64,000 nucleotides of DNA, taken from Verrucomicrobiales bacterium (GTDB lineage: Bacteria; Verrucomicrobiota; Verrucomicrobiia; Verrucomicrobiales; DEV007). Position 1 is the first letter of the stretch. Every line of letters starts with the position of its first letter. The DNA lies in NCBI GenBank assembly GCA_012960505.1, contig DUBC01000002.1, positions 1-64,000 of the forward strand, in the 5' to 3' direction. Shown one piece after another: positions 36,001-59,667 of the stretch. The translations under genes were made by a program, and so were the position numbers. Under the pieces are notes generated by a model, which was given only the letters and a program-made list of their open reading frames with translations, made no database searches and was not told the DNA's origin.

Positions 36001-37605
36001 ATGACAAGAATAAGTCCATTCATACTGCTCCTATTTTTTTCGGCATTGAATTTTTCAACTAATCAATCCAATGCTGCAGAGAGACCAAATATTGTTTTTA
36101 TTTTTTCAGACGATCATGCTCCGCATGCTATCGGTTCATACAATGGTTGGTTGAAGTCCATTGATCCGACTCCGAGGATAGATCAATTAGCTGCGCAGGG
36201 AATGCTCTTTGAGAACAGCTTCTGCACTAATTCGATTTGCGGCCCTAGCCGCGCTGTAATAATGACTGGAAAGCACAGTCACAAGAACGGTTTCATGAAT
36301 AATGGAAATTCCTTCAATTGGAACCAGCAAACCTTTCCCAAAATTCTCAGGAAGGCCGGATACACAACTGCTCTGTATGGGAAATCGCATCTGAAGGGTA
36401 AGCCCCAAGGCTTTGATGACTGGAAAGTACTACCTGGACAGGGACTTTATTATAATCCTGATCTGATTACTCCAAAGGGCCGTGTCCGCATTGATGGACA
36501 TTGTACTGATATCGTTACTGACCTTGCCGTGGACTGGATTAAAGAAGAGCGTGACAAGTCGAAGCCGTTCATGATTATGGTTCAGCATAAGGCGCCTCAC
36601 CGTAATTGGATGCCGGCACTGAGGCACTTGCCTCTTTACAAGGATGTGACAATACCTGAACCGAAGACACTCTTTGATAAGTGGGAGGACAACGCACCTC
36701 CTGCAAGGCATCAGGAACTTGAGATCGATCGGCACATGGATATTAACTATGACTTGTTCGTTGACCTGACGGCGGATTATGAAGGGACCCCCTCACAGAA
36801 GCGGCAAGACAGATCGGCTTGGTGGAACATGAAGCGAATGAGTAAAGAGCAGCTCAAGTCATGGAGAGAATATTATGCCCCTCTGGATAAAAAATTTCAT
36901 GAATCCAAGCTCTCTGGGAAGGACCTTGTCCGTTGGAAGTTTCAGCGATATGCAAAGAATTATCTGCGTTGCGTTCGTGGAGTAGATGATAGTGTGGGTA
37001 AGATTCAGGATGTCCTCAAGGAGTTAAAATTGGATAAGAATACGGTCGTAATTTATTCTTCAGATCAGGGATTTTATATTGGTGATCATGGATGGTATGA
37101 CAAGCGATGGATGTATGAGGAATCACTTAAGATGCCGCTCATTGTTAAGTGGCCTGGGGTCACGAAGCCGGGTTCTAGGATAACTCAGATGGTTCAGAAC
37201 CTTGACTATGCTGAGACTTTTATTGAAATGGCTGGGGCAAAGATACCTCAAAATATGCAGGGAATGTCCTTGGTTCCAATCTTAAAGAATGGAAGAGCTG
37301 AGAACTGGAGAAAGAGTATTTATTACCATTACTATGAGTTTCCGAGCGTGCACATGATTCCACGCCATTATGGGATACGGACCGAGAGATATAAGTTGAT
37401 GCATTTTTATCAGTTCGGCAATGAGTGGGAAATGTATGATCTTCAAGAGGATCCTGATGAGTTGCAGAATATTTACGGGAAAACCGGTAAAGAAAAATTA
37501 CAAGAGGACATGAAAAAGCAACTCGTCGCGATACGTAAATATTACGACGATAATACGGATGTTGCTGAAAAGCCTGCCGATTGGAAGAAGAAGATGCGCC
37601 TGTAG
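36001..37605 (+). CDS. Exported Cys-type sulfatase
   Basis: A type I sulfatase of 534 residues with a signal peptide (about 1-26). The formylglycine site is CGPSR (Cys80-Arg84, followed by AVIMTGKHSHKNG), and metal-site residues appear in FIFSDDHAPH and SSDQGFYIGDHG. Hydrolysis of a sulfate ester from an extracellular polysaccharide is the family activity; the exact subfamily is not clear to me. It needs a maturase to form formylglycine, which is not in the window. It is convergent with the DUF1501 gene 7 bp away. Confidence 0.93.
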   Translation: MTRISPFILLLFFSALNFSTNQSNAAERPNIVFIFSDDHAPHAIGSYNGWLKSIDPTPRIDQLAAQGMLFENSFCTNSICGPSRAVIMTGKHSHKNGFMNNGNSFNWNQQTFPKILRKAGYTTALYGKSHLKGKPQGFDDWKVLPGQGLYYNPDLITPKGRVRIDGHCTDIVTDLAVDWIKEERDKSKPFMIMVQHKAPHRNWMPALRHLPLYKDVTIPEPKTLFDKWEDNAPPARHQELEIDRHMDINYDLFVDLTADYEGTPSQKRQDRSAWWNMKRMSKEQLKSWREYYAPLDKKFHESKLSGKDLVRWKFQRYAKNYLRCVRGVDDSVGKIQDVLKELKLDKNTVVIYSSDQGFYIGDHGWYDKRWMYEESLKMPLIVKWPGVTKPGSRITQMVQNLDYAETFIEMAGAKIPQNMQGMSLVPILKNGRAENWRKSIYYHYYEFPSVHMIPRHYGIRTERYKLMHFYQFGNEWEMYDLQEDPDELQNIYGKTGKEKLQEDMKKQLVAIRKYYDDNTDVAEKPADWKKKMRL

Positions 37606-42527: not shown

Positions 42528-45500
42528 ATGATCAGAACCATGATGAACCCTTTTCGGTTTTTTCCATTTAGTTTCATTTTTTATCTTTCTTTGATCGTTC
42601 CGGTTGCCGTCGCGCAAGAACCAAAGGAATTATCAGTTCCCAAAAAAGAATCAACGACCAAGAAAGATCCTGCCCTTGACCAATACTATGTGGCGAATGC
42701 GGCCTTTAATAGAAAGCTTTATCCTGTTGCAGTGAGTCAGTTTGAGGCTTTCCTCGAGAAAAATCCTGATCACTCCAAAGCTGACCTTGCTGGGCAGGGA
42801 CTTGCTCTTAGTCTTTATGCTCTCAAACAGTATGAAAAGGCGATGACTCACCTCGATGCTCTTCTTAAGAAAGAGAAACTTGATCCTAAAGTGAGCCGGG
42901 AGCGGCTCGTCATGCTTCATGGTCAGTGCCTGATGATTTCAGGAAAGCGAGTCGATGCGAAGGTATTGTTTCTTGCCGAAATTAAAGAGCTAACGGATAA
43001 ATCCTATCGTGGCGCTGCACTGGCTGCGATCTGTGATGTTAGCTTCAGTGAGAAGAAATGGCTAGATGTGGAAAAGTGGGCTGTTGGCCTCATCGCTTCT
43101 AAGCCGGGACCTGAAGGACTTGCTCGGGTCCTCTATCAGCAGGGCTACGCTAAATATCAACTCAAAAAACCTCAGGAGGCCGTCCAGTCATTGGTTGGTA
43201 TTGCCGCATTGGAGGCAAATAAACTTTGGTCAACGAGGGCAAATTATATTCTTGGAGAGTGCTATAATTTACTCAAGGAGTATGGCAAAGCAGAGCAGTC
43301 TTTCTTAGCTGCATTGCCTAGTCTTGGGCCTCCCGAATCTACTGAATGTCATTACAGGTTGGGCATCACTCGATTCACTTTAAAGAAGTATTCGGATAGC
43401 ATTGAGGATCTTGGAAAATACATTAAAGATGCGCCTGAGGGTAAGCACATAGCAGAAGCCACCTTTTATATTGCAAGAGCGCACCTTGAAGAAAAAAACT
43501 TTGAGGAGGCAGGCGCTGCCTTCGCTTCTCTGGGTGCTGGAAAAGGAGCAATAGCGGCGAGAGCAAGTCTATGGAATGCACGAGTCTTTGCCCGTAACGG
43601 TAAGGATTATGATAAGGCTTCAGAGATTCTGGAGGATGCAACTGTTCGTTTCGCAGAATTAAAAATCATCACCGATCTTCGTTTCGATTATGCGAATGCG
43701 TTAATGGGAAAAAAAGCACCTGACTGGAAGTCAGCACTTGCTCTACTTGGCGAAGTTCAAAAAGATGAAAAATTCGCGCAGCTAGCAGATCTATTGATCC
43801 AGAAATCCGTGTGCCAACAGAATCTTGCCGATTATGAAAATAGTCTTAGCTCTATTGATGAATTTATTTCTTCATTTCCTGAACACCCACTGAGAGGGAT
43901 CGCTCTGTTTTCGAAAGCGGAAAATTTATTTTTACTTAATAAAATTACGGAAGCGGCTCCTGCATATGCTAATTTCATGAGCAATTTTCCAGAGCATCCG
44001 AACCAATTAATTGCTCAGTTTCGAGTCGTACAGATTAATCATGGACAAGGTCAGTGGGAAGAATGCCTGGAAGCCTCAGCATCTCTCCTCAAAAAGGACC
44101 TTAAAGGGCCGCTATTTGCTCAATTATATTTTATCATTGGCGACTGTTCTTTCCGTTTAGAGAAATGGGAAGATGCTATTACGCATTTGGAAAACTTTTC
44201 AGCTTCGAATACTTCAGAAGGCAAGGTAACTGCGATTAAAAATTTAGATACTGCCCTGATGCAGTTAGCAGTGGCGCATTCTCGTCAGGGAGATGATGCT
44301 AAGTCCTTATCGAAACTCAAGGCCCTCGTCGACTCTTATTCTGGATCCACTCCTCACCTTCCACTAGCCTTAGCGGAACAGGGTCGCATTGCTTTTGAGT
44401 TAGGCGATTTTAAAGCTGCTCGTACTGCGTTAGAAGGGTTCCTTGAGGAGGACAAGAAAATGTTGAAGCCGTTTTCAGATGGCGCTGAAGGTCAGCGGCC
44501 CAGAGTAATGTATTATCTTGGTTGGGTCGATTCCTCCGAAGCTAAATATGAGTCCGCTGCTGTAAATTTTGGAAAAGTTTTGGACCTTGATGCAAAGCAC
44601 CCGCTCGCTTCTGATGCTGCGTTGCAACGAGGTGTTTCTTTGGTCAATGTCGGAGATTTCAAGTCCTCCAGTAAGCACTTATTAGATGTAATCGAAAATT
44701 ATCCAAAACATGCCAAGCTTTCCAGAGTCATTTATTATGCTGGAATTTCTTTTGCCAGGCAAAGTCAGTGGGATTCAGCCGCGGTGCAGTTCAGCTCCTT
44801 GATTGAAAATTATCCTAGTTCTGATTTTACTGACCGGGCCCTTTATGAATTGGCTTGGTGTAATCGAAGTTCCGAGAAGATTGAGGAAGCGGTGGAACTT
44901 TATCAGAAACTCTTAAAGGAACATCCTAAAAGTTCACTCGCAGCTAAAGTCCAGAGTGAATTGGCAGAGATGAATTTAAAAGGAGGTAATATTGAGGAAG
45001 TCATCGCTCAGCTAACCGATGCTCTTGAAGGTGTAAAGAATGAGAAGCTTCGCGCTGATATCCGTTACCAGTTAGCAAGCGCTCATCTCAAGGCAGCTAA
45101 TTATAAAATTGCGGCAGTCCAATTCGAAGGGATGCTTAAGGATTATCCTGAATCAAAGTTAATGGATCGTATCTTGTTTAATGCTGGTGAGTGTCGGCTA
45201 AAACTTGGTGAGATGGAATCTGCAAGCATACATTTTACTGCTGCAGCTGGAGTCGAAGGGAGTCCGGAGGCGCTTTCTGAATCAGTCATGATGCGGCTCG
45301 GTGAAACTCAGGCTGCTACAGGAAAACATAGCGAAGCTAAAATTACATATGCAGCTTTTCTTGAGCGCTTTAAGGAGAGTCGTTGGAGAAGGAATGCTTC
45401 TTTCGGACTAGCATATGCAACTGACCTTAGCGGGAACTCTGCCGAGGCAATTCCTCTTTACAAGGCATTAGTTTCTTTTGATAACGTTGATCTGTGGACT

Positions 45501-45767
45501 GTGCGTTCCCGGTATCAGGTTGGGCTATGTTATTTTAATTTAAAGAAATACGAAGAAGCTCTTGTCGAATTTGTGAACCTCGAGATCAATTATCCGCAAT
45601 ACCCTAACTGGCAGGCGAAGTCAGTGCTGGGCGTGGGTCGTATTCTTTTGGAACAGAAGAAAACTGATCAGGCTATCGAACAGTTCAAGGAAGTCTTGAG
45701 CCGATACAAGGATGAGGAGGCCATTGGTCTTGCTCGAAATTATCTAGAAAAAATTGAGTCAGAATAG
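42528..45767 (+). CDS. Large exported tetratricopeptide-repeat protein
   Basis: A 1079-residue protein with a signal peptide (core FFPFSFIFYLSLIVPVAVAQ). The remainder is a nearly continuous array of TPR-like helical pairs, with recurring Y-x-x-A and G-x-x-x-x-A positions (for example FNRKLYPVAVSQFEAFLEKNPDH and KYEEALVEFVNLE... near the end). It lacks catalytic motifs and probably acts as a periplasmic or surface scaffold, with some resemblance to CpoB/YbgF-type TPR proteins. It is followed after only 18 bp by the 1116-residue membrane protein and then a sulfatase, so it probably forms part of one envelope complex. Confidence 0.88.
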   Translation: MIRTMMNPFRFFPFSFIFYLSLIVPVAVAQEPKELSVPKKESTTKKDPALDQYYVANAAFNRKLYPVAVSQFEAFLEKNPDHSKADLAGQGLALSLYALKQYEKAMTHLDALLKKEKLDPKVSRERLVMLHGQCLMISGKRVDAKVLFLAEIKELTDKSYRGAALAAICDVSFSEKKWLDVEKWAVGLIASKPGPEGLARVLYQQGYAKYQLKKPQEAVQSLVGIAALEANKLWSTRANYILGECYNLLKEYGKAEQSFLAALPSLGPPESTECHYRLGITRFTLKKYSDSIEDLGKYIKDAPEGKHIAEATFYIARAHLEEKNFEEAGAAFASLGAGKGAIAARASLWNARVFARNGKDYDKASEILEDATVRFAELKIITDLRFDYANALMGKKAPDWKSALALLGEVQKDEKFAQLADLLIQKSVCQQNLADYENSLSSIDEFISSFPEHPLRGIALFSKAENLFLLNKITEAAPAYANFMSNFPEHPNQLIAQFRVVQINHGQGQWEECLEASASLLKKDLKGPLFAQLYFIIGDCSFRLEKWEDAITHLENFSASNTSEGKVTAIKNLDTALMQLAVAHSRQGDDAKSLSKLKALVDSYSGSTPHLPLALAEQGRIAFELGDFKAARTALEGFLEEDKKMLKPFSDGAEGQRPRVMYYLGWVDSSEAKYESAAVNFGKVLDLDAKHPLASDAALQRGVSLVNVGDFKSSSKHLLDVIENYPKHAKLSRVIYYAGISFARQSQWDSAAVQFSSLIENYPSSDFTDRALYELAWCNRSSEKIEEAVELYQKLLKEHPKSSLAAKVQSELAEMNLKGGNIEEVIAQLTDALEGVKNEKLRADIRYQLASAHLKAANYKIAAVQFEGMLKDYPESKLMDRILFNAGECRLKLGEMESASIHFTAAAGVEGSPEALSESVMMRLGETQAATGKHSEAKITYAAFLERFKESRWRRNASFGLAYATDLSGNSAEAIPLYKALVSFDNVDLWTVRSRYQVGLCYFNLKKYEEALVEFVNLEINYPQYPNWQAKSVLGVGRILLEQKKTDQAIEQFKEVLSRYKDEEAIGLARNYLEKIESE

Positions 45768-45785
45768 ACTCTGAGGAAGCTCAAA

Positions 45786-48700
45786 ATGAGCTATTATAAC
45801 AGGCTTGCTAAACTCATCTCGGCAATGCGGATACCGCGTTGTTCTTGGCGCTCTATCTTACGAGCTGTTAAGAGTTTGAAGTGGTCAGATATCAAGCGAT
45901 GGTCAGGCCCGGCAGTAGCATTGTTGGTTGTGTTGATCATTCTGTGGAATCTTGGAGGTAAGGCGCGAAGAGAAGTCTGGGCTTACTATACTGACGGAGA
46001 GGATATTCGTATCAGTGCTCAGGAAAACAAAGCCCGTTCTGTTTTGTGGGAACCCCCTTCTCCGACCATTTTATCCAAAGGAGAAGAAAAGGAAAAATTG
46101 AAGGAGGGTCCGTCCGGAAATTTTGAAGCTGCGTTTTCTGCAGATGGTAGGCAAATGGCCCTAGTCCTTGAACGAGAGAAAGGCTCTGATATTTTCATTT
46201 CATCTTGGGACGGTAGGGTCTGGTCAGCGCCTGAACTCATTACCAATATCAATACAGATTCTAATGAGAGAGGGCCTGCATTTTCGGCTTCCGGTAATTA
46301 TTTGTATTTTAGCTCTGACCGGAAAGGTGGACACGGAGGTTATGATATTTATGCGGCTCTTTGGAATGGAACCGAATGGGCTAGCGTAAAGGGTCTAGGT
46401 TCAAGCATTAATGGACCAGATAATGAAACGGGACCTGCTCCTTCATCGGATGATTCGATATTATATTTTTCATCGGATCGGAACGGTATCGAGGACCAGG
46501 ACATTTATGCAGCCGTACAGACGGCAGAATCAGCCCCACTCCAGTTCGCGGACTCTATTCCGGTGAAGGACCTTAATTCTCGATCCAATGATATTCAGGC
46601 AGCACTCACTAAGAAAGGGTCTCATGTATTTCTTTCTTCGGACCGTGAAGATGATTCAGTTTTTGGTGTTTATATGAGTCGCGTAATTGGCGATGAAGTT
46701 CAATCTCCTGAACGTGTAGACCTTTACATCAAAGAAGATAATGTTACGGATCCGGCAGTGCGAATGGATGGATTTGATCTGCTCTTTAGCACAGATTATG
46801 GTTCTTCTGCGGGCGATGAAAAAAGTAATTATCGATTATATAAGTCAACTACACGCGAAGTCTTTGGCTATCGAGATTCTAGCCGATGGGAAGAATATAA
46901 AAATGCTTTAGGAAAATTAAAGTGGTGGTTAATCGCGGCACTGTTAGCTCTCCTCGCTCTTATCTATTTATTAGAAACGTGGCAGGACATTACGAGTCTA
47001 TTACATAAGTGCATAGCTGCATCGATGGCCTTGCACTTGCTGCTTTTATTGCTAGCGACGGCCTGGTTCATTACTCAGGAATTTGAACAGCAGAGCGAAA
47101 ATTTATCGAGTGAAATTGCTATCAGTTTAGATGCCCTTTCGCAGGAAGAATTGGCTATGGAAAGTGCTCCTGAAGAGGCAGAGATATCTGATCCTAGTAT
47201 CCAGATATCGATCGAGAAGGCCGAGAGTGATTTCAATATCCCGGAACTAAAGCCACAAGAATTAGTTGAGAATGTACCTGAGGTGGAAGCACAATTTCAG
47301 GAATCTATGGATATTGAAATTAAGACTTCACAGGCGGAGGTCCAAGAAGATTCAATGGCTCAGAAAGTGAATGAATCGAGCCTCATAGCTGAGCTCTCTG
47401 AACCTGTTTTGCCTGAGATTGAGGAAGCTTTGTTGGAGGAGGATCGGAACCGAACGACTCAGGACAAAAAAATGGCTGAATCGAATAATGTTTTTGAGCC
47501 TGAGATTGAAAGTACTGAATTATCAAAGGCAGAGATGGATGCGGTTTCTGACAGTGCCGTTGAGAGTGAGACTGGAAGTGAGTCCGTAGCGTCCGGGAGT
47601 CTGGTAGCTGAGGCGACGCAGGCCGAGAGTCAATTAACTGAGTCGGGAGGAGCTTCTCAGGAAGCGGCCCAAACACCAGAGCTTGCATCGGGCAGCTTAC
47701 CTGAGCTTGCGCTTGTAGAGCCTGGAGCTCCTAAGCTTGAGGAAGTGACTGGTGATTCTGGAGCCCAGCAGGCCGATCCATCGAAGGATACCTTTGAACC
47801 TGGCGGAGGAGTGGCGAGTTTGGAAACAGTTCAGGAGGAAGGAGGCGCTGGTTCTGACAGTGCCGTTGAGAGTGAGACTGGAAGTGAGTCCGTAGCGTCC
47901 GGGAGTCTGGTAGCTGAGGCGACGCAGGCCGAGAGTCAATTAACTGAGTCGGGAGGAGCTTCTCAGGAAGCGGCCCAAACACCAGAGCTTGCATCGGGAA
48001 ATCTTCCTGTCTATGCGATCAGTGCCCCATTATTACCTGACTCATTGGAATCGAATCGTAAAGAATTGGATGGTGGAAGCCTAACTGACCTTATTAAAAA
48101 GCATCGTGGTAAGCCATCAATCGATACAATTAAGCAAATGGGAGGTTCGGATGCGACCGAGAAGGCAATCGTTGCTGCCATTGAATGGTTATCTAAAAAT
48201 CAGGAAAAGGATGGGAGATGGGATACGAAACAATTCAACGCTGAAGCAAACTATGATGTTGGAGGAACGAGCCTAGCTTTGCTCTGTTATTATGGCTGGG
48301 GAGTCAGACATGATCGGCAAGGAAAGTATCAGAATAATGTGAAGAAGGCCCTTTCATGGCTCATTAATCAGCAGAATAAAGATGGTAATTTAGCGGTATC
48401 TGGAAAGATGTATTCTCATGCAATTGGAACCATTGCTCTTTGTGAAGCGTATGGGATAACGAAGGATTCCAATATCAAAATTGCGGCACAGAAAGCAATC
48501 AGTTACACTATAAGTTCACAACATCCTCAGCGAGGAGGTTGGCGATATAGACCTGGTCAGGACTCCGATACATCAGTGACCGGTTGGCAGTTCATGGCTT
48601 TACATAGTGCCAGGATGGCAGGGATAAATGTTCCAGAAGAGCCATTTGAGTTGGCCCGTCGATGGTTGGATTTTGCTGGTGGTGGTGAGCATGGTGGTCT

Positions 48701-49136
48701 TTATGGCTATAAGGGGCCTAGCGAAATATCGAGAGCGATGGTAGCAACCGGAATGTTTTGTAGGCAACTTGATCTGGTTCCCCCCACGGATCCTCGTATG
48801 ATTGAAAGTGCGCAACTCTTAAAGAATAATCCTCTGAGACCAGTTAATCCGGATCTGTATTATATTTATTATGCGACCCTTGCATTATATCAGCATCAGG
48901 GGCCTATTTGGCAGGACTGGAACAATAAGTTAAAGGAAACACTTCCTAAGATTCAGAACAAGACAGGTAAGAACGCAGGTAGTTGGGATCTGAGTCGACT
49001 CATGACCAAGGGCGGGGGTCGCGTGGCCAGTACGACCTTAGCGATTCTTAGTTTGGAGGTATATTATAGGATACTCCCAATGTATGGTTTCCGTGGCACT
49101 GATGTTCCTGAAATTAAGCTGAAAGAAGGCGAATAA
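45786..49136 (+). CDS. Multi-domain membrane protein: PD40 propeller, TM hairpin, acidic linker, squalene-cyclase-like toroid
   Basis: A 1116-residue protein with GAGGA upstream of its ATG. A basic N-terminus precedes TM1 (about 41-58). Residues about 105-365 are PD40/TolB-like propeller repeats (FSASGNYLYFSSDR, DDSILYFSSDRNG, KKGSHVFLSSDRED). TM2 (about 381-396) and TM3 (about 408-427) follow, then a Glu/Ser/Ala-rich disordered segment (about 430-760) containing a 49-residue exact duplication. The C-terminal part (about 775-1100) is an alpha/alpha toroid of the prenyltransferase/squalene-oxidase repeat type (AAIEWLSKNQEKDGRWD, GGWRYRPGQ, VTGWQFMAL). With an inside N-terminus, propeller and toroid would both be periplasmic. 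Function unknown; the toroid in PVC proteins is not expected to cyclise terpenes. Confidence 0.8.
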   Translation: MSYYNRLAKLISAMRIPRCSWRSILRAVKSLKWSDIKRWSGPAVALLVVLIILWNLGGKARREVWAYYTDGEDIRISAQENKARSVLWEPPSPTILSKGEEKEKLKEGPSGNFEAAFSADGRQMALVLEREKGSDIFISSWDGRVWSAPELITNINTDSNERGPAFSASGNYLYFSSDRKGGHGGYDIYAALWNGTEWASVKGLGSSINGPDNETGPAPSSDDSILYFSSDRNGIEDQDIYAAVQTAESAPLQFADSIPVKDLNSRSNDIQAALTKKGSHVFLSSDREDDSVFGVYMSRVIGDEVQSPERVDLYIKEDNVTDPAVRMDGFDLLFSTDYGSSAGDEKSNYRLYKSTTREVFGYRDSSRWEEYKNALGKLKWWLIAALLALLALIYLLETWQDITSLLHKCIAASMALHLLLLLLATAWFITQEFEQQSENLSSEIAISLDALSQEELAMESAPEEAEISDPSIQISIEKAESDFNIPELKPQELVENVPEVEAQFQESMDIEIKTSQAEVQEDSMAQKVNESSLIAELSEPVLPEIEEALLEEDRNRTTQDKKMAESNNVFEPEIESTELSKAEMDAVSDSAVESETGSESVASGSLVAEATQAESQLTESGGASQEAAQTPELASGSLPELALVEPGAPKLEEVTGDSGAQQADPSKDTFEPGGGVASLETVQEEGGAGSDSAVESETGSESVASGSLVAEATQAESQLTESGGASQEAAQTPELASGNLPVYAISAPLLPDSLESNRKELDGGSLTDLIKKHRGKPSIDTIKQMGGSDATEKAIVAAIEWLSKNQEKDGRWDTKQFNAEANYDVGGTSLALLCYYGWGVRHDRQGKYQNNVKKALSWLINQQNKDGNLAVSGKMYSHAIGTIALCEAYGITKDSNIKIAAQKAISYTISSQHPQRGGWRYRPGQDSDTSVTGWQFMALHSARMAGINVPEEPFELARRWLDFAGGGEHGGLYGYKGPSEISRAMVATGMFCRQLDLVPPTDPRMIESAQLLKNNPLRPVNPDLYYIYYATLALYQHQGPIWQDWNNKLKETLPKIQNKTGKNAGSWDLSRLMTKGGGRVASTTLAILSLEVYYRILPMYGFRGTDVPEIKLKEGE
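47546..47692 (+). repeat. 147-bp exact direct repeat, copy 1
   Basis: The first copy of a 147-bp sequence inside the linker of the 1116-residue protein; identical to 47852-47998, with start-to-start distance 306 bp (102 codons), so the frame is kept. It encodes 49 acidic, Ser/Ala-rich residues beginning SDSAVESETGSESV. Confidence 0.97.
47852..47998 (+). repeat. 147-bp exact direct repeat, copy 2
   Basis: The second copy, identical at every base to 47546-47692. The segments after each copy (GSLPELALVEPGAP and GNLPVYAISAPLLP) are also similar, so the duplicated unit was longer and only this core remains exact. Recent duplication or gene conversion is likely. Confidence 0.97.
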
Positions 49137-49137
49137 A

Positions 49138-50538
49138 ATGAAAAGGATTCGAGTGTGCTTTTTAAGTGTTACCTTCTTATTGGTTCTCTCAGGTATAGCG
49201 CAATCAAAGGTCAGAAATGTGCTTTTTTTGATTTCAGATGATCTTAAGGCAAGTGTTCTTGGATGCTACGGCAATGAGGTATGCAAGACTTCAAATATAG
49301 ATAAACTAGCGAGTCGGTCTCTTGTCTTTGAAAGGGCCTACTGTCAGGGCACGTCTTGTAATCCTTCTAGAACTTCTCTGATGCACAGTCGGTACATGGG
49401 CAAGTCCGATATGAACCTGGGTAAGTTATTTAGAGATAATTCTTATTATTCTGCGCGGGTAGGGAAGATCTATCATATGCGTGTTCCCGGAGACATCATT
49501 GCTGGTACTGATGGTTTGGATATTCCTTCTTCGTGGACCGAGAGATTTAATTCTAAAGGGCTTGAGGCGCATACTCCTGGTGATTATGCCTGCCTTAACC
49601 TGAATATTTTCACTAAAGAACTTGAGGGAAGGCAATCGACAAAGATGCCTCATAGAATGTTTGTGACGGTCAGTTATGATGGTGACGGTTCTGACCAGCC
49701 GGATCATAAGACTTCGACTAAGATAATCGATTTACTAAGAAAGCATAAGGATGAGCCGTTCTTTTTGGCTGCTGGATTTGTGCGGCCTCATTATCCGATG
49801 GTTCAACCTAAAAAGTATTTTGATCAATATCCTTATGAAAAAATGAAGTTGCCTTTACAGGCTCCTAATGATCTCCAAGATATCCCTAAATCAGGGTTGG
49901 CTTCGACCAGGTCCGGAACAAACAGTATAGGTAAGTATCCTGAGAATCAGAAACGGATGTGGTCAGGATACTATGCTTCGACCCAGTTCATGGATGAGCA
50001 GGTAGGCAGGATATTGGATGAACTGGATAGGCTTGGTCTAAGGGATAGTACTGCAATTGTTTTCACCAGTGATCATGGGTATCATCTCGGAGAACATACT
50101 TTCTGGCAAAAAAGTAATTTACACGAAGAAGTTCTCCGGGTGCCTCTGATGATTTCTGTTCCCGGCATGAAGTCGGGGCGGACCCAATCAATAGTGGAGT
50201 TAGTTGATTTGATGCCTACCTTAGCAGAAATTTGTGACATCAATGTCCCTTCTACAGTTCAAGGGAAGAGTCTTTTGCCTGTTCTCAAGAATCATTCGGT
50301 TTCCGTGAAGGAGGGTGCCCTTTCCTTTCATAGAGGAGGAATTTCATATAGAGTCAATGGATGGTCATATACTCGATATAAAGGAGGGGCGGAGGAGTTT
50401 TATGATATGAAGAAAGATCCTGAGCAATTTCTCAATCTGGCATCGCAAGATGATAATAAATACATATCTCAGCTGAAAAAAATGCGATCCAATTTTGACA
50501 AAAGACTTAAGATTCTTGATCCAAAAGCTAAAAAATAG
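49138..50538 (+). CDS. Exported Cys-type sulfatase (iduronate-2-sulfatase-like)
   Basis: A type I sulfatase of 466 residues with a signal peptide (about 1-23). The formylglycine site is CNPSR (Cys74-Arg78), the metal-site strands are FLISDDLKASVLGCYG and FTSDHGYHLGEH, and the VRPHYPMVQPKKYF segment is typical of iduronate-2-sulfatase-like members. The ATG is one base after the TAA of the preceding 1116-residue gene, so translation is probably coupled. It would desulfate a polysaccharide in the periplasm or outside the cell. Confidence 0.92.
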   Translation: MKRIRVCFLSVTFLLVLSGIAQSKVRNVLFLISDDLKASVLGCYGNEVCKTSNIDKLASRSLVFERAYCQGTSCNPSRTSLMHSRYMGKSDMNLGKLFRDNSYYSARVGKIYHMRVPGDIIAGTDGLDIPSSWTERFNSKGLEAHTPGDYACLNLNIFTKELEGRQSTKMPHRMFVTVSYDGDGSDQPDHKTSTKIIDLLRKHKDEPFFLAAGFVRPHYPMVQPKKYFDQYPYEKMKLPLQAPNDLQDIPKSGLASTRSGTNSIGKYPENQKRMWSGYYASTQFMDEQVGRILDELDRLGLRDSTAIVFTSDHGYHLGEHTFWQKSNLHEEVLRVPLMISVPGMKSGRTQSIVELVDLMPTLAEICDINVPSTVQGKSLLPVLKNHSVSVKEGALSFHRGGISYRVNGWSYTRYKGGAEEFYDMKKDPEQFLNLASQDDNKYISQLKKMRSNFDKRLKILDPKAKK

Positions 50539-50672
50539 GACAAAAATAAGTCCTAAATTGATTATTTAAATCATTATGACAAAGAGTCTCAAAGCTTTTA
50601 AAGAAAGTTCATAATATTTTAGGAAAGTTCATCGTATATCTGTAGTATTATTCTTATTATCCGTTGCCAATC

Positions 50673-53099
50673 ATGAGTTTATTTTTTCGTTGGAATCTGG
50701 TTCCGTTGATCATTGTATCTAAGATTTTGATCATATCTCAAGTTCATTCAGCCCAAGGTGAACCCGTTAATTTTGCCCGAAAGATTTTGCCGATCCTTTC
50801 TAATAAATGTTTCGCATGTCATGGTCCGGACTCCAAGAAGCCTTCGCAGCTACGACTAGATTCCTTTGCAGCGGCCACTGCGGACAGGGATGGGGTCAGA
50901 GCAATCAATACTGATAAACTCAAGGAAAGTGAGATCCTTTTTAGGATCCATGACAAAGAAGATCCGATGCCTCCTGATGATGCTGAAAAACAGTTAACTG
51001 AAGGTGAGCGCACATTGTTGAGTCAGTGGATCAAAGGCGGAGGTCAGTACGCTGAGCATTGGGCCTTTGTTCTCCCTAAAAAAGAAAAGGGGAAAGAAGG
51101 CATTGATGACTTTGTTTCTGAAAGTCTAAAGAAAGAAAATATTAATTTTGCGCCAGAAGCAGAAAGGTCTGTCCTCGCTAGGAGAGTGGCCCTCGTCTTG
51201 ACGGGCCTGCCGCCAGAACCTTCTCAGCTGTCCAAGTTTCTGGCTGATAATAGTCCTGAATCCTACGAACACTTAGTTGATTCATTGATTTCGAATTCTC
51301 GTTACGGAGAGCATCAGGCCCGTTACTGGCTGGACGCTGTCCGGTATGGTGACACGCATGGACTTCATTTGGACAATAAGAGAGGGATTTATCCATACAG
51401 GGACTGGGTAGTTAAAGCGTTCAATGATAATTTACCTTTTGATAAGTTCATTACTTGGCAACTCGCTGGTGACTTACTTCCGAACCCGACCCTTGAGCAA
51501 AGAGTGGCTACTGGTTTTGTACGCATGAATCCAACCACTGCAGAGGGAGGTGCAATACCAAAAGAATTTCAAGCTAAGAACAATTTTGACCGGACCGAAA
51601 CATTGGGAACTGTGCTCCTCGGAGCGACGATGACTTGCGCCCGTTGTCATACTCACAAATATGACCCCATAGAGCAGGTCGAGTACTATAAACTTTTCGC
51701 TTTTTTTAACAGTACTTCGGAAGGCTCAATGGATGGGAACCGTTATGAATATGCTCCAGTACTTAGGGCCCCGGCTAGTGGTCAGGATTGGGAAGCATGG
51801 AGTGTTCTTGAATCTGAGCGGGTCGCGATTCTAGAAGAGTCGAACAAGCTTGTAGGATCCGTCAAAGGGCTAGATCAGAAGGCTTGGGAAGGGTCGGATA
51901 ATAGTGCCCGTTTTGCAATGATTGCAGATCCGAACGGTTCCTGGAAAGGGCAGAGCCTCCAGTCACGGGCCATTGATTTAAATAAAAAGACTGGAGAATT
52001 ACAAAAGAGATTTACTACGACTTTAGTGACTGAAGATTTGAAAAAACCGCGCGAAACAAAAATACTTCAGCGTGGAGAATATAATCTTCCTACCGGTGAT
52101 TCACTTGAACCTGGCGTTCCTGCTGTGATGGGATCCTTGCCTAAAGAGGCACCAAAGAACCGGCTAGGTCTTGCTCAGTGGTTGATTTCCAGCGATCAGC
52201 CACTCGTCTCTAGAGTCCTCATTAATCGGGTTTGGCAACGTATTTTTGGTCATGGTCTGGTGCGGACCCCTGAGGACTTTGGTTTGCAGGGAGAGCAGCC
52301 AACGCATCCGGCCCTACTTGATTGGTTAGCCGTTGAATTTCAGGAAAGTGGATGGGACTTACAGCATATGTTGCACTTGATGGTGAGTAGTAGGACTTTT
52401 AAGCAGGATTCTAAATGGCGTAAAGAAGTTCAGGACCCTGACAATCGACTCTTTGCGAGGGGTCAGAGTTATCGGCTAGATGCTGAGGTCATTAGAGACA
52501 TAGGACTTTGGGCAAGTAATTTACTTGATACTACTATGGGAGGTGAAGGAGTGAAGCCTTATCAGCCGGCGGGCATGTGGTTAGCGCTAATGCACCCTGC
52601 AAGTAATACTAAGAAATATGTGAGAGATAAGGGTGAGCGCCTCTACCGAAGGAGTATTTATGTGTATTGGAAACGGACCAGCCCGCACCCGATGATGACT
52701 CTTTTTGATGCTCCTGTGCGGGAGTCTAGTTGTGTCATGCGCTCGCGGAGTAACACAGCATTGCAGTCACTTGGCCTTCTCAATGAGACACAAAGGATTG
52801 AAATGTCACGCAAGCTTGCAGAGCGTTTGATTGTAAGTTCCAAAGATGATAGCCGCCGCTTGGATTTCCTTTTCGGGCTCCTCGCTTCACGTAAGCCGAC
52901 CGATCCTGAGAGGAAGGTGTGCGAGACGCTGTTGAATAATATGAGGAGTAGGTACGAATCATCACAAGAAGATGCGACTGCCCTAATATCCCAAGGAGAT
53001 GCTCCCCGTGATGCAAAGATTCCTCCGACTGATCTTGCTGCCTGGACGCAACTCACAACAATTGTTTTGGCCAGTGATGTGGCCATTCTAATGTATTAA
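50673..53099 (+). CDS. PSD1 / DUF1549 / DUF1553 cytochrome-like exported protein (pair 2)
   Basis: From the ATG at 50673 it has 808 residues with a signal peptide (LVPLIIVSKILIISQVHSAQ); a TTG at 50664 is an alternative. The PSCyt1 domain has the haem motif CFACHGPDS, DUF1549 has CARCHTHKYDP, and DUF1553 shows SRTFKQ, YRLDAEVIRDIGL and RSNTALQSLGLLNE. It lacks the long insert of pair 1. It begins 134 bases after the sulfatase and is followed by its DUF1501 partner after 20 bp, so it may extend the operon of the TPR/propeller/sulfatase trio. Confidence 0.93.
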   Translation: MSLFFRWNLVPLIIVSKILIISQVHSAQGEPVNFARKILPILSNKCFACHGPDSKKPSQLRLDSFAAATADRDGVRAINTDKLKESEILFRIHDKEDPMPPDDAEKQLTEGERTLLSQWIKGGGQYAEHWAFVLPKKEKGKEGIDDFVSESLKKENINFAPEAERSVLARRVALVLTGLPPEPSQLSKFLADNSPESYEHLVDSLISNSRYGEHQARYWLDAVRYGDTHGLHLDNKRGIYPYRDWVVKAFNDNLPFDKFITWQLAGDLLPNPTLEQRVATGFVRMNPTTAEGGAIPKEFQAKNNFDRTETLGTVLLGATMTCARCHTHKYDPIEQVEYYKLFAFFNSTSEGSMDGNRYEYAPVLRAPASGQDWEAWSVLESERVAILEESNKLVGSVKGLDQKAWEGSDNSARFAMIADPNGSWKGQSLQSRAIDLNKKTGELQKRFTTTLVTEDLKKPRETKILQRGEYNLPTGDSLEPGVPAVMGSLPKEAPKNRLGLAQWLISSDQPLVSRVLINRVWQRIFGHGLVRTPEDFGLQGEQPTHPALLDWLAVEFQESGWDLQHMLHLMVSSRTFKQDSKWRKEVQDPDNRLFARGQSYRLDAEVIRDIGLWASNLLDTTMGGEGVKPYQPAGMWLALMHPASNTKKYVRDKGERLYRRSIYVYWKRTSPHPMMTLFDAPVRESSCVMRSRSNTALQSLGLLNETQRIEMSRKLAERLIVSSKDDSRRLDFLFGLLASRKPTDPERKVCETLLNNMRSRYESSQEDATALISQGDAPRDAKIPPTDLAAWTQLTTIVLASDVAILMY

Positions 53100-53119: not shown

Positions 53120-54631
53120 ATGCAAACACCTGATCCTCTTCGCGAATTTGATCTTAACTTAACTCGACGACAACTCTTTGGGCGTTCAGCTCTTGGCCTA
53201 GGTACTGCGGCCATGGCTCAACTTTTCAATGATCAATCCTTCGGTTTGGATAAGACTTCACCGACATCTCATGGGGGTCTTCATCACGCGCCTAAGGCCA
53301 AACGCGTCATATATCTCTTTATGAGTGGTGGACCGAGTCATCATGATTTATGGGATTATAAGCCTAAAATGCAGGAGATGTATGGGCAGAATCTACCGGA
53401 CCATATCAGGGACGGTCAACGCATTACTGGAATGACAGCCGGGCAGAAGACACACCCTGTCTGCCCAAGCAAATACAAATTCACGAAGCATGAAAATAAT
53501 GATGAAGGGTTATGGGTCAGTGAGCTTTTGCCCCATACGGCGACAGTGGCCAAAGATCTTTGTGTTGTGCACAGTACATATACCGAGGCCATTAACCATG
53601 ACCCTGCCATAACCTATATCCAGACAGGGAGTCAAATACCTGGGCGTCCAAGCCTTGGATCATGGCTAAGTTATGGTCTTGGTACCATGAATGAGAATTT
53701 ACCAGGGTACGTTGTCATGCATGCGAAGACCAAATTTGCAGAGCAGAGTCTATTTGGGCGGTTATGGGGAAATGGATTCATGCCTTCGGAGCATCAGGGA
53801 ACCTTGATAAGAAGTCAGGGCGATCCTGTCCTCTTTCTTAGTAATCCTAAAGGGGTCAGTAGTAAGGATCGGAGAGCTCAGCTTGACGCTTTGGCTCTTC
53901 TTAATCAGGAACAATATTCTAGGTTCGCTGATCCTGAGATTTTATCGCGGATAAAACAGCACGAGATGGCGTACCGAATGCAGTCCTCAGTGCCTGAACT
54001 GATGGATCTTTCCAAAGAGGATGACAAGACCTTTGATCTTTATGGTGAAGAAGCCCGTGACCCTGGCAGTTTTGCCGCTTGTTGTCTCAATGCAAGGCGA
54101 CTGGCACAGAGAGGGGTTCGAAATATACAGATCTTTCATAGGGGATGGGACGCTCATGGAAACCTTCCTCGCGAACACGAATCTCAGTGCAAAGACATTG
54201 ATAGAGGAAGCGCTGCATTGATTAAAGATTTGAAGCGTTTGGGAATGTTGGATGAGACACTAATAGTTTGGGGTGGAGAATTTGGACGAACTGCCTACTG
54301 TCAGGGAGGACTTAATAAGGACAATTATGGACGAGACCATCATCCTCGATGCTTCTCAGTCTGGATGGCCGGTGGTGGCATTAAGTCGGGAATAACGTAC
54401 GGTAAAACGGATGATTATGGATATAACATTGCCCATCCCGACGGAACGCCAATGCGTCCAAAACCAGGTAAGGAGAAGTGGACTCCAGACACAATGCACA
54501 TTCATGACCTGAATGCCACGATTCTGCATTTGCTTGGCATAGACCACCGCAAACTTACTTATCGATACCAGGGAAGGGACTTCAGATTGACTGACATTCA
54601 CGGGCATGTGGTTAAGGATATACTGGCCTAG
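53120..54631 (+). CDS. DUF1501 family Tat-exported protein (pair 2)
   Basis: A 503-residue DUF1501 protein with a Tat-like signal (TRRQLFGRSALGLGTAAM), the VIYLFMSGGPSHHDLWDYKP motif, TYTEAINHDPAITY, WGGEFGRTAYCQGG, GRDHHPRCFSVWMAGGG and the C-terminal HDLNATILHLLGIDH. It has an additional loop around TPMRPKPGKEKWTPD before the last motif, which pairs 1 and 3 lack. It follows its PSD1 partner directly. Confidence 0.93.
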   Translation: MQTPDPLREFDLNLTRRQLFGRSALGLGTAAMAQLFNDQSFGLDKTSPTSHGGLHHAPKAKRVIYLFMSGGPSHHDLWDYKPKMQEMYGQNLPDHIRDGQRITGMTAGQKTHPVCPSKYKFTKHENNDEGLWVSELLPHTATVAKDLCVVHSTYTEAINHDPAITYIQTGSQIPGRPSLGSWLSYGLGTMNENLPGYVVMHAKTKFAEQSLFGRLWGNGFMPSEHQGTLIRSQGDPVLFLSNPKGVSSKDRRAQLDALALLNQEQYSRFADPEILSRIKQHEMAYRMQSSVPELMDLSKEDDKTFDLYGEEARDPGSFAACCLNARRLAQRGVRNIQIFHRGWDAHGNLPREHESQCKDIDRGSAALIKDLKRLGMLDETLIVWGGEFGRTAYCQGGLNKDNYGRDHHPRCFSVWMAGGGIKSGITYGKTDDYGYNIAHPDGTPMRPKPGKEKWTPDTMHIHDLNATILHLLGIDHRKLTYRYQGRDFRLTDIHGHVVKDILA

Positions 54632-54676
54632 TCACTCTATCGCTCAGTAATGCGAAGTTAAAATATTATCTAAGTG

Positions 54677-55753
54677 ATGAAGATACTCATTGCCATATTT
54701 CTTCTGGTACCTGCTACTGCTTTTGCTCAAGACAAAGTCCAATGGTATGACGTTACTCAGTGGGGGATAGAAGGACGAGGGTGGGGGAATCAGGAACGGT
54801 CCAAGTGGTTTGACCGTTTCCCGGCCAAGGCAGAGAAAACTGTGACCAAGTCGGTTTGGGATTTGAGTCGTCATAGTGCGGGCATGATGGTGCACTTTAA
54901 GACTGATGCTAATGCCGTCCACGCCAAGTGGAAGGTTGCCTCTTCGCGGTTGGGCATGCCCCATATGCCGCCTAGTGGCGTGAGTGGACTGGATTTATAT
55001 GCGCGCGATGCTAAGGGCAAATGGCGCTGGGCAGCAGCTACTCTTCCAGCCAAGCAGGAAATGCAGGTCACGCTTTTGCGGGGAATTAAACCGGAACTGC
55101 GCGAGTATGCACTGTATCTGCCGCTTTATAATGGAACTGAGTCTTTGGCTGTTGGTGTGCCGGCAGGTTCAAATTTTCAGGGACTTGCGCCTCGCAAAGC
55201 CAGACCACTGATTTTTTATGGAACCTCTATTACTCAGGGTGCCTGCGCGTCGCGACCCGGAATGGCGTACCCGGCGATTCTCGGCCGGTGGCTTAATATG
55301 CCGGTCATCAATATCGGATTTTCGGGCAATGGCAAAATGCATGAAGAAGTAGGGGATCTCATGATCGAAATGGATGCGGCTGCTTACATCATTGATTGTC
55401 TGCCTAACATGAACGGAGCGATGGTGACTGAACGCTGTGTTCCTCTGGTGAAACAGTTGCGCAAGGCTCGAGCCGATACTCCGATTGTGCTTGTGGAAGA
55501 TAGACGCTTTCCCAATTCCTGGTTGGTGCCGGATAAATCAAAATTCCACGACGATAACCATGCGGCATTAAGTAAGGCGTATCAGGAGTTAAAAGCTGCA
55601 GGAGTGAAAAACCTTCACTATCTCGGCGGCGACGCACTGCTTGGTGATGACGCCGAGGGTACCACCGATGGCTCGCATCCTAACGATCTCGGTTTCCTAC
55701 GTCAGGCTGAAGTTTTTGCGCCCGTATTACGCAAGGCACTGGGCTTGAAATAA
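54677..55753 (+). CDS. Exported SGNH/GDSL-type hydrolase (probable carbohydrate esterase)
   Basis: A 358-residue protein from the ATG at 54677 (a GTG lies one codon upstream), with a signal peptide (MKILIAIFLLVPATAFAQ). An N-terminal beta domain (about 25-170) precedes the SGNH hydrolase domain: the nucleophile block FYGTSITQGACA, NIGFSGNGKMHEE (Gly/Asn oxyanion residues) and the acid/base block TDGSHPNDLG. Family members with this N-terminal part deacetylate polysaccharides. It lies in a sulfatase/PSD1 neighbourhood and looks more GC-rich than the genes before it. Confidence 0.88.
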   Translation: MKILIAIFLLVPATAFAQDKVQWYDVTQWGIEGRGWGNQERSKWFDRFPAKAEKTVTKSVWDLSRHSAGMMVHFKTDANAVHAKWKVASSRLGMPHMPPSGVSGLDLYARDAKGKWRWAAATLPAKQEMQVTLLRGIKPELREYALYLPLYNGTESLAVGVPAGSNFQGLAPRKARPLIFYGTSITQGACASRPGMAYPAILGRWLNMPVINIGFSGNGKMHEEVGDLMIEMDAAAYIIDCLPNMNGAMVTERCVPLVKQLRKARADTPIVLVEDRRFPNSWLVPDKSKFHDDNHAALSKAYQELKAAGVKNLHYLGGDALLGDDAEGTTDGSHPNDLGFLRQAEVFAPVLRKALGLK

Positions 55754-57177: not shown

Positions 57178-59667
57178 TTAGTTTAGGTATCTGAATTCGG
57201 CGGAAATGAGCAGAGACTGACAGAAAGTATTAAGGGCAAGTCTTTCGATCTTTTGACGGTTCTGACTGTCAGTACCAGCCCTGATGATAAAATTACTCAG
57301 ATAGGCCAGAGCATTATCAATTTCTTCATTCGTCGCAGGCCGAGCAAATGCGATAGCAAAAGCCCGAGATATGCGATTGCGATTCGTTTCTGCACTTTTG
57401 TAAACACGCAGCGCCATGGCCTCGGCCTGTTCAATAACAAACGCGTTATTCATCAGGTAAAGGGCCTGGTCGGGAACATTAGTTTCTTCGCGCTTTCCGG
57501 TCACAATATTTGGGTCAGCAGGATCGAATAAGGCAAGTGATTCAGGTAAATTATCTCGGGCCGCAGGTAGGTAAGCTGAACGGTAATTGTTCGGGCGATC
57601 GCGATCGTTTCCGCCCCGTGGTCGGCGGAAACCACCAACTCTGTTATCTCCGTCCCAAGCGATGTCTGAACCGATCGGACGCTTCGTGTCCAAACGTCCA
57701 CTAACGATGAGCATAGAGTCGCGTAAGGCCTCGGCATCAATTTTCTTTGGGCTATGACGCCATTGCAGGAAGTTTTCTGGGTCTTTTACAAAGGCTGCAT
57801 GATTAAAATTGGAACTCATACGGTAGCTCCGAGTCAGAACCAGATCTCGAATTAGCGATTTTACTGACCATTTTCCTTCCATGAATTTTACGGCTAGGTG
57901 GTCAAGTAAATCGGGATGACTGGGTGCTTGGCCAGTTGTTCCAAAATTGTTCTGCGAGGTGACGATACTGTTACCGAATAGGTGTCCCCAGACTCGGTTG
58001 ACCATGACTCGTGCAGTGAGTGGATTTTCTTTCGAAACTAACCACTCGGCGAATTCACGGCGCCCACTAGTGTTCAATGATAATTTGACTGGTTCGTTGC
58101 AAAGCACCTGAGGAAATCCGCGATCAACTTTTTGAGCAGGCTTATCGAGTTCGCCTCGGATCAGAACGACTGATTGGATGAATTTTTCTCTGTCCTGCAC
58201 GCCCATGGCACGCGTTAATGAGATGCCATCCTCATCAACGCTATTTAACCGTGCTCGCATCTGTGAGATTTGAGAACGGAGCCTCTGCGCTTGTTGCTGA
58301 GCGTTACTGGACCTGCCCGCTGACCGGTCCTCTCTTGCCTGACGGGTCAGCTCATTGAAGCGTTGCTCGGAATCTCCAAGACGATTTTTAATAATTGAGA
58401 TCCCATTCGTGCCCAAAGGATCGATCGGTTCTTTGTCCGCTATGGGAAGCTCTAAAAGATTCGTGCCGCGACGATTCTGAATTACGTTCACTGTACCGAA
58501 GTAGGTCTTGGTGTTCAAAAAGATTCCCGCTAGCGAGTAGTAATCTGTTGTGGGTATGGGATCAAACTTATGATCATGGCATCTAGCACATGAGACCGTG
58601 AGTCCGAGGATAGCTTGGGTAGTGGTGTCGATCTGTTCATCGGCCAGATCCAGAGCGAACTGGCGCGGGTCCCGTTCGTTCAGATTCTTTGGTCCGATAG
58701 CAAGAAAACCGGTAGCAATTAGATTTTCTTGCCAGTCGGCATCGTTTTTAATCGGCAACAGGTCCCCAGCGATTTGCTCTGTAATAAATTCGTCGTATGG
58801 CTTATCGGCGTTGATGGAATCAATGACGTAGTCTCGGTACCGCCATGCGTGCGGGAAGGTCATGTTAATATCCTTACCGGTTGACTCAGCGAAGCGGGCA
58901 ATGTCCAACCAGTGCCTTCCCCAGCGCTCACCAAAGCGCTCGCTCGCGAGCAGTTTATTGACTTCCAGCCGATAAGCATTCTTCGGATCCTTTTTCCATG
59001 CAGTCGCATATGCTTTAATTTCTTTTGGTGAAGGTGGGAGTCCTATTAAATCGAAGTATATCCTTCTTAAAAGAGTTTCAGGTTTCGCATCCATTGCCGG
59101 CTTGAGTCCATTGGAATCTAGCTTTGCCAGTACAAAGTGATCAATGTCTGATGCTGGCCATTTCTGGTCGCTTACGGTAGGCGGCTCTTTTTTGAGCGGC
59201 TTCTTGAATGACCAGAATTTCTTACCCTCTTCAATATTAATCTGGGTTTTGACTATCGCTTTCTCGGCTACTCGTGGGTCCGGGGCCCCCATTTCTATCC
59301 ATTCCTTGAAGTCGGCAACGATACTTGCCGGGAGCCTTTTCTTGGGCGGCATTTCATAATCCTCTTCGGCCCAGTTGATTGCAGTCCACAACAGACTTCC
59401 ACGCAGATCTCCAGGCACTACAGCAGGACCGGAATCGCCACCGTGACGGATCCCTTCCCGGCTATCAATGCTCAGACCACCCTTGATCTTTTCCTCGGAC
59501 GAATGACAACGATAACATTGTTCGACCAGTACTGGCCTGATCTTTGATTCAAAGAATTTGAGTTCCTCATCTTTCAATGAAGATTCTGACTTACCCTTTT
59601 CAGAGCAAACGGCAACACAAAGACAAGTAATTAAAGTGATTCGCGTCATGAGACTTCTCACAGTCAT
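57178..59667 (-). CDS. PSD1 / DUF1549 / DUF1553 cytochrome-like exported protein (pair 3)
   Basis: An 829-residue exported protein (Met7 is an alternative start). PSCyt1 carries CYRCHSSEEK, followed by the GGLSIDSREG block and MPPKKRLP; DUF1549 carries CARCHDHKFDP; DUF1553 carries SRTYRM-like SRSYRM and ALRDSMLIVSGRLD. A coiled, Arg/Gln-rich segment near residues 440-475 (QAREDRSAG and following) interrupts the middle region. It lies 19 bp upstream of its DUF1501 partner and 21 bp after the EF-hand gene. Confidence 0.93.
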   Translation of the reverse strand: MTVRSLMTRITLITCLCVAVCSEKGKSESSLKDEELKFFESKIRPVLVEQCYRCHSSEEKIKGGLSIDSREGIRHGGDSGPAVVPGDLRGSLLWTAINWAEEDYEMPPKKRLPASIVADFKEWIEMGAPDPRVAEKAIVKTQINIEEGKKFWSFKKPLKKEPPTVSDQKWPASDIDHFVLAKLDSNGLKPAMDAKPETLLRRIYFDLIGLPPSPKEIKAYATAWKKDPKNAYRLEVNKLLASERFGERWGRHWLDIARFAESTGKDINMTFPHAWRYRDYVIDSINADKPYDEFITEQIAGDLLPIKNDADWQENLIATGFLAIGPKNLNERDPRQFALDLADEQIDTTTQAILGLTVSCARCHDHKFDPIPTTDYYSLAGIFLNTKTYFGTVNVIQNRRGTNLLELPIADKEPIDPLGTNGISIIKNRLGDSEQRFNELTRQAREDRSAGRSSNAQQQAQRLRSQISQMRARLNSVDEDGISLTRAMGVQDREKFIQSVVLIRGELDKPAQKVDRGFPQVLCNEPVKLSLNTSGRREFAEWLVSKENPLTARVMVNRVWGHLFGNSIVTSQNNFGTTGQAPSHPDLLDHLAVKFMEGKWSVKSLIRDLVLTRSYRMSSNFNHAAFVKDPENFLQWRHSPKKIDAEALRDSMLIVSGRLDTKRPIGSDIAWDGDNRVGGFRRPRGGNDRDRPNNYRSAYLPAARDNLPESLALFDPADPNIVTGKREETNVPDQALYLMNNAFVIEQAEAMALRVYKSAETNRNRISRAFAIAFARPATNEEIDNALAYLSNFIIRAGTDSQNRQKIERLALNTFCQSLLISAEFRYLN

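Follow-up and report, generated by a model that had tools for sequence, protein, structure and literature searches.

A propeller and toroid fusion protein, probably a TonB/TolA-like transducer, encoded beside a sulfatase gene in a Verrucomicrobiales bacterium

Genes of the window locus and domains of the fusion protein

The DNA analysed here, called the window, comprises positions 1 to 64,000 (forward strand) of contig DUBC01000002.1 from a Verrucomicrobiales bacterium (assembly GCA_012960505.1), whose genome is 94% complete. The three large genes that the initial annotation had placed 18 bp and 1 bp apart were recovered exactly and on the same strand. Together with the genes behind them they form locus B, in the order TPR gene, fusion gene, sulfatase, PSD1 and DUF1501 (Table 1). 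ExbB and ExbD are absent from the window locus, a point that the initial annotation had missed.

The TPR protein begins with a signal-like segment (residues 11-29, ...VPVAVAQ) and matches the Pfam TPR repeats with an E value of 4e-53, as well as the CpoB/YbgF-like profile TIGR02795 (E 5e-68 as the sum of 10 repeats). The sulfatase belongs to PF00884 (Sulfatase, E 4e-39), and its closest solved structures are arylsulfatase 6hhm and iduronate-2-sulfatases. In type I sulfatases, the cysteine of the C-x-P-x-R motif is converted to formylglycine. Genes for sulfatases, PSD1 and DUF1501 proteins are numerous in PVC bacteria. In a 24-kb part of the window (36001-59667), a further sulfatase (36001-37605) and three apparent PSD1/DUF1501 pairs were seen, with one member of the third pair (57178-59667) assigned by position only.

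Promoter-like sites in the window occurred at chance level (16 versus 15.4 in shuffled sequences), and 13 terminator-like sites were found versus 7.5 in shuffles. One inverted repeat, at 50536-50555, directly follows the sulfatase gene, but its oligo-T tail lies chiefly on the minus strand. Given these counts and the position of the tail, the scans yielded nothing decisive for operon prediction.

Table 1 Features of the window locus and of the proteins encoded there
Feature	Position (nt)	Strand	Basis or remark
TPR protein, 1079 aa	42528..45767	+	ORF, Pfam, hydropathy; ~49% identity to the TPR protein of paralogous locus A
Force-transducer-like fusion protein, 1116 aa	45786..49136	+	TM1/PD40 propeller/TM2/TM3/acidic linker/toroid
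TM1, residues 40-58	45903..45959	+	Hydropathy; helix 33-65 in AlphaFold model
PD40 (TolB-like) propeller, ~residues 113-360	46122..46865	+	Pfam, AlphaFold, Foldseek
TM2, residues 378-396	46917..46973	+	Hydropathy
TM3, residues 410-428, with S413-x3-H417	47013..47069	+	Hydropathy, alignment with E. coli TonB/TolA
Motor-box-like segment, residues 442-456, SEIAISLDALSQEEL	47109..47153	+	Side-by-side sequences; putative function
Linker, residues 461-785, 325 aa	47166..48140	+	Composition; low model confidence, predicted disordered
Direct repeat copy 1, 163 nt	47541..47703	+	Within linker coding region
Direct repeat copy 2, 163 nt	47847..48009	+	96% identical, spacing 306 nt; within linker coding region
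Alpha/alpha toroid head, ~residues 786-1105	48141..49100	+	No DXDD; Pfam (sub-threshold), AlphaFold, Foldseek
S1-type sulfatase, 466 aa	49138..50538	+	ORF, Pfam; signal-like N-terminus
Sulfatase Cys74 of CNPSR (C-x-P-x-R active-site motif)	49357..49359	+	Sequence
PSCyt1/PSCyt2/PSD1 protein	50664..53099	+	Downstream of sulfatase in orthologous B loci too
DUF1501 protein	53120..54631	+	Linkage seen in orthologous B loci
SGNH/GDSL hydrolase	54674..55753	+	Next in line also in two close relatives, L045 and L046

The middle gene had been described as joining a PD40 propeller, three transmembrane segments (TMs), an acidic linker and a toroid in one chain, and this architecture was confirmed by Pfam, hydropathy and AlphaFold/Foldseek. 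PD40 was matched with an E value of 5e-21, and the squalene-cyclase/prenyltransferase matches to the toroid (E 1e-5 to 2e-4) lay under the curated cut-offs. In an AlphaFold model built with 32 homologues, the toroid helices (780-1100) are confident, the propeller strands mostly so over 113-250 and not over 262-368, and the stretch 459-774, which is linker, is of low confidence. Because of the linker, the mean pLDDT of the full-length model is only 55 (pTM 0.39), so no relative placement of domains and no docking was drawn from it. When the model was searched against the PDB with Foldseek, the propeller end matched TolB and the C-terminal end matched GH76, SHC and AprG toroids, with a TM-score to target of about 0.6 for the squalene-hopene cyclases and GH76. 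By Pfam, neither a TonB_C nor a TolA C-terminal domain is present in the fusion, whose C-terminus is the toroid, and no vWA match was obtained in the fusion or its relatives. The chain would start inside the cell, cross outwards at TM1, form a periplasmic propeller, return through TM2, leave again through TM3 and continue as the linker to a periplasmic toroid.

A paralogous locus with ExbB and ExbD, and the third transmembrane segment

A second locus of the window genome, locus A (contig C52, L009), encodes in order a TPR protein, ExbB, ExbD, a propeller/toroid protein and a paralogue of the fusion. The two TPR proteins are 49% identical, and the fusion paralogue (1034 aa) is 43% identical to the window fusion. 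The motor genes are clear members of their families (ExbB: PF01618, E 1e-29; ExbD: PF02472, E 2e-25); locus A has one ExbD and no sulfatase in its operon. Compared with locus A, the window locus lacks ExbB, ExbD and the propeller-toroid gene. Given that ExbB and ExbD lie between the TPR gene and the fusion paralogue, the Tol/TonB-like reading, first proposed from the sequence of the window, gains evidence from homology, and it is now well supported by this locus and by a Ser-x3-His motif in TM3 of the fusion.

The propeller/toroid protein of locus A (L009:8824-11196, with orthologues) has about 790 residues, carries its toroid inserted inside the PD40 propeller and ends in a C-terminal TM, and is thus a second, permuted use of the two domains of the fusion. 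A model of its L103 copy (mean pLDDT 76) matches SHC/AprG toroids and TolB.

In TM3, S413 and H417 align with S16/H20 of E. coli TonB and S18/H22 of TolA (MG1655 sequences) without gaps in the TM. The SHLS motif, and above all its His, has been described as a motor contact (PMC12204202). Among relatives the TM3 consensus is HKC(I/L/M)A(A/G)SxxxH, and Ser-x3-His is kept in all 47 relatives whose sequence covers TM3 (46 found by pattern plus L072, an HQC variant; L105, without a match, is a fragment too short to judge). In three distant relatives the Ser is replaced by Ala. Neither the Leu nor the second Ser of SHLS is retained, position +11 being A, M or G and +15 mostly F or L. The fusion also has three TMs, whereas TonB and TolA have a single motor-docking TM. 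A motor-box-like segment begins about 30 residues past S413, the equivalent distances being about +29 in TonB and about +32 in TolA; the stretch after TM3 is conserved as an EIAISxDALxQEEL type, and the AlphaFold model shows no strand there.

In sampled loci of the window genome, S-x3-H was found in 7 of 189 TM-like segments, belonging to six proteins, four of these being the fusion, its locus-A paralogue and two further proteins whose genes adjoin other ExbBD pairs. These last two (L116:5455-6210 and L117:7339-8853 (minus); 251 and 504 aa) have a single S-x3-H TM each and no Pfam match, and are probably further unrecognised transducers of this genome.

Distribution, conserved linkage and the candidate motor

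A scan of GTDB species genomes for the system returned 50 loci, nearly all from Verrucomicrobiota (the exceptions being one from Kiritimatiellia, one from Planctomycetota and one without a named label). Most loci with enough flanking sequence are of form A, which spans Verrucomicrobiota and is commoner than B. Eight are B loci (L056, L057, L058, L059, L062, L063, L067 and L075). Where the contig extends past the fusion gene (L057, L059 and L062), a sulfatase (68-73%) and then PSD1 (68-74%) follow in all three, and DUF1501 (84%) also follows in L057 and L062. In L065 and L091 the TPR gene immediately precedes the fusion gene, and no sulfatase match was found. The gap between TPR and fusion genes is 18 nt in close relatives and 12 nt in a second subclade, and that between fusion and sulfatase is 1-3 nt across the B loci where it is measurable. 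The order TPR-fusion-sulfatase-PSD1-DUF1501 is kept even where the fusions are only about 47-56% identical. The suspected linkage to the sulfatase and to the second PSD1/DUF1501 pair is thus conserved in orthologous loci, and the contrary case raised in the initial annotation, that related genomes would show no such linkage, fails.

Locus B forms one clade in both the TPR tree (SH-aLRT 100) and the transducer tree (SH-aLRT 99), which were made by a quick method with SH-aLRT support, without bootstrap, and with midpoint roots; given such roots, we infer the direction of change between A and B from distant relatives with ExbBD. Values of dN/dS between 0.07 and 0.12 for the TPR, fusion and sulfatase genes against close relatives indicate purifying selection, and together with the orthologous operons elsewhere they argue that the arrangement did not arise by chance. 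That the window locus might be a decaying, functionless duplicate of locus A is suggested by its missing ExbB, ExbD and propeller-toroid genes, yet the same low dN/dS, three intact genes and a synteny conserved through the whole B clade make this highly improbable.

Presence of the system is patchy: it occurs in 14 of the 75 genomes of the family and, at E 1e-30, in 6 of the 388 sampled across the phylum. In distant relatives from three further families the transducer gene again adjoins ExbBD, in L126 and L129 also together with a TPR gene. Four of five of these distant transducers have about 740-750 residues, the arrangement TM-propeller-TM-TM plus linker and a conserved TM3 His, and lack a toroid. 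Since such toroid-less proteins stand beside ExbBD, the propeller and three TMs with a motor form the core of the system, to which the toroid was added as a modular head. The other contrary case raised in the initial annotation, that the two halves of the fusion would be separate genes elsewhere, is largely not borne out: the fused form occurs throughout, although the distant relatives do without the toroid.

These relatives also bear on whether the fusion is instead a membrane-anchored toroid enzyme, either a terpene cyclase or a glycan-active protein, with the TMs and propeller as a scaffold and no motor. Its toroid does resemble squalene-hopene cyclases, GH76 mannanases and the sugar enzyme AprG, and a glycan-active toroid would make sense next to a sulfatase. 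DXDD is the catalytic motif of class II terpene (squalene-hopene) cyclases. It is missing from all 34 toroids checked, on which ground the terpene-cyclase reading was rejected; the Pfam and NCBIfam cyclase matches stay below cut-off, and the retention of TMs, propeller and ExbBD linkage without a toroid in distant relatives indicates that the toroid is not the core. We therefore regard an enzyme of this kind as an improbable explanation.

The linker of the fusion is acidic (22% D+E and 6% K+R over 325 aa). The pair of 163-nt repeats in the DNA that encodes it has the appearance of a recent duplication, by which the linker was apparently lengthened, at least in part; protein self-BLAST of the linker returned no repeats, despite the clear repeat in the DNA. 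In 27 of 29 A-group transducers the linker has 238-239 aa, although the sequences diverge (exceptions: L070, 338 aa; L095, 648 aa). It has 325-440 aa in the B transducers and 833 aa in L091, giving 325-833 aa for motor-less relatives overall. This contrast between near-constant A-group linkers and longer motor-less ones gives an easy starting point for working out how such levers operate. At L039:12924-17134 one relative has its transducer divided within the linker, with two ORFs that overlap (863 + 540 aa), through either a frameshift or a genuine splitting of the gene.

Seven ExbB-like matches were found in the window genome and no ExbBD lies in the window locus itself, so the fusion may use a motor other than that of locus A, or no motor at all. 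The ExbB of locus A is the obvious first choice, since the transducer native to that locus is the fusion's paralogue. Of the 10 B or B-like genomes searched, 6 have this ExbB (62-73% identical), as do the window genome and G008. It was not found in the other four, which are incomplete or small assemblies (G002, G004 and G009, 59, 58 and 71% complete; AG-439-D21, 3.2 Mb, completeness unstated), but it may also be truly absent there. Most likely, the window fusion is driven by the locus-A motor. Precedent for such sharing comes from H. pylori, where TonB1 is encoded away from exbBD and still co-purifies with ExbB3/ExbD3 (PMC13367063). A TonB_C protein is also encoded separately in the window genome, where its locus includes a TonB-dependent receptor. 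Two more ExbB/ExbD loci (L115:2683-7593 and L114:7193-11006) encode large TPR proteins and no visible transducer, and L115 has an ExbD gene pair, as do published vWA loci.

Proposed mechanism and comparison with known systems

Levers of the TonB/TolA type normally pass energy from the inner membrane on towards the outer one. We consider the 1116-aa fusion to be, on balance, a TonB/TolA-like transducer of new architecture that arose as a locus-A duplicate, shares an ExbBD motor and has a probable role with sulfated glycans. An ancestral locus of form A (TPR, ExbB, ExbD, propeller-toroid protein and transducer) would have been duplicated, the window copy keeping the TPR and transducer genes only and then joining a secreted sulfatase gene, followed by PSD1 and DUF1501. 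TM3 of the fusion would dock onto the proton-driven ExbB-ExbD motor through Ser413/His417 and be pulled or rotated by it. Held by TM1 and TM2, the TolB-like propeller would sit close to the motor in the periplasm, and it is probably there that the secreted TPR protein binds. The linker would then cross the periplasm and transmit force to the toroid head, which would engage a partner close to the outer membrane. The TPR, fusion and sulfatase proteins may form one complex. Judged by gene linkage, with a secreted sulfatase, PSD1 and DUF1501 encoded downstream, the handling of sulfated glycans is the most economical task to suggest, and the fusion would probably energise an outer-membrane or surface step in it.

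Alternatively, the fusion could be a TonB/TolA-like transducer that performs the same general envelope role as locus A, such as Tol-like outer-membrane stabilisation or division, and the sulfatase merely a co-transcribed neighbour. Locus A, the more widespread form, has no operon sulfatase; the TolB-like propeller and CpoB/YbgF-like TPR profile recall Tol-Pal; and TolB_N (PF04052) was not found in the window genome (94% complete), which leaves room for a Tol substitute. However, sulfatase, PSD1 and DUF1501 are kept directly downstream across divergent B genomes, which, with fusion-sulfatase gaps of 1-3 nt, suggests a shared task, and a system found in so few genomes of the family is unlike an essential Tol function. 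A general envelope role is thus rather unlikely, and we keep to a transducer with a sulfated-glycan role. More tentatively, and with somewhat less than even confidence, we suggest a new family of pmf transducers with a built-in TolB-like propeller and an exchangeable head (toroid or none), in which an orphan, motor-sharing branch was captured by a sulfatase operon and would power the handling of sulfated glycans at the outer membrane.

Tol-Pal consists of TolQRA, TolB, Pal and CpoB. The present system has a motor, a transducer, a TolB-like propeller and a TPR protein as comparable parts, and Ser-x3-His in the motor-binding TM, but its propeller is fused to the transducer, its head is a toroid and the TolA C-terminal domain is missing. 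With TonB-ExbB-ExbD it shares the Ser-x3-His TM, the motor-box-like segment and a disordered spacer, but not the TonB_C domain. The toroid fold is common to the fusion head, squalene-hopene cyclases and GH76 mannanases; unlike these enzymes, the head has no DXDD, falls below the family cut-offs and is membrane-anchored on a linker. Profiles of the T9SS were matched as well, PorE by the propeller (E 7.5e-23) and PorW/SprE by the TPR protein (E 7e-30). T9SS membership was rejected on the scores, which are 80.6 bits against a cut-off of 600 for PorE (NF052230) and 104 against 250 for PorW (SprE).

To our knowledge, the ExbBD/TolQR-driven transducers described are TonB, TolA and vWA proteins. The initial view that no described system has this architecture holds for a propeller/toroid/ExbB system, none of which was found in the literature searched (open-licence papers), but needs qualifying, because TPR-TolQ-TolR-vWA transducers of PVC bacteria have been known since 2025 (PMC12204202). 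Such vWA force transducers, which also occur outside PVC bacteria, are encoded in PVC loci in the order TPR, tolQ-like, tolR-like and transducer (Williams-Jones et al. 2025, PMC12204202). They resemble the fusion in having a transmembrane helix with an SHLS-type motif, of which the fusion keeps the first Ser and the His, a disordered linker and a globular head unrelated to TonB/TolA, and resemble locus A in having a TPR gene and motor genes ahead of the transducer. Unlike them, the fusion has an alpha/alpha toroid as its head and an extra TM1-propeller-TM2 module ahead of the motor TM, locus A has a single ExbD instead of a pair, and the window form is motor-less and accompanied by a sulfatase. 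The propeller-toroid family thus differs from the vWA class in its head, its built-in propeller and its motor-less branch. With its own TPR protein and a branch without motor genes, the propeller-and-toroid type extends the range of ExbBD/TolQR-driven transducers, and in PVC bacteria it connects envelope energy with sulfated-glycan genes in a way that can be tested.
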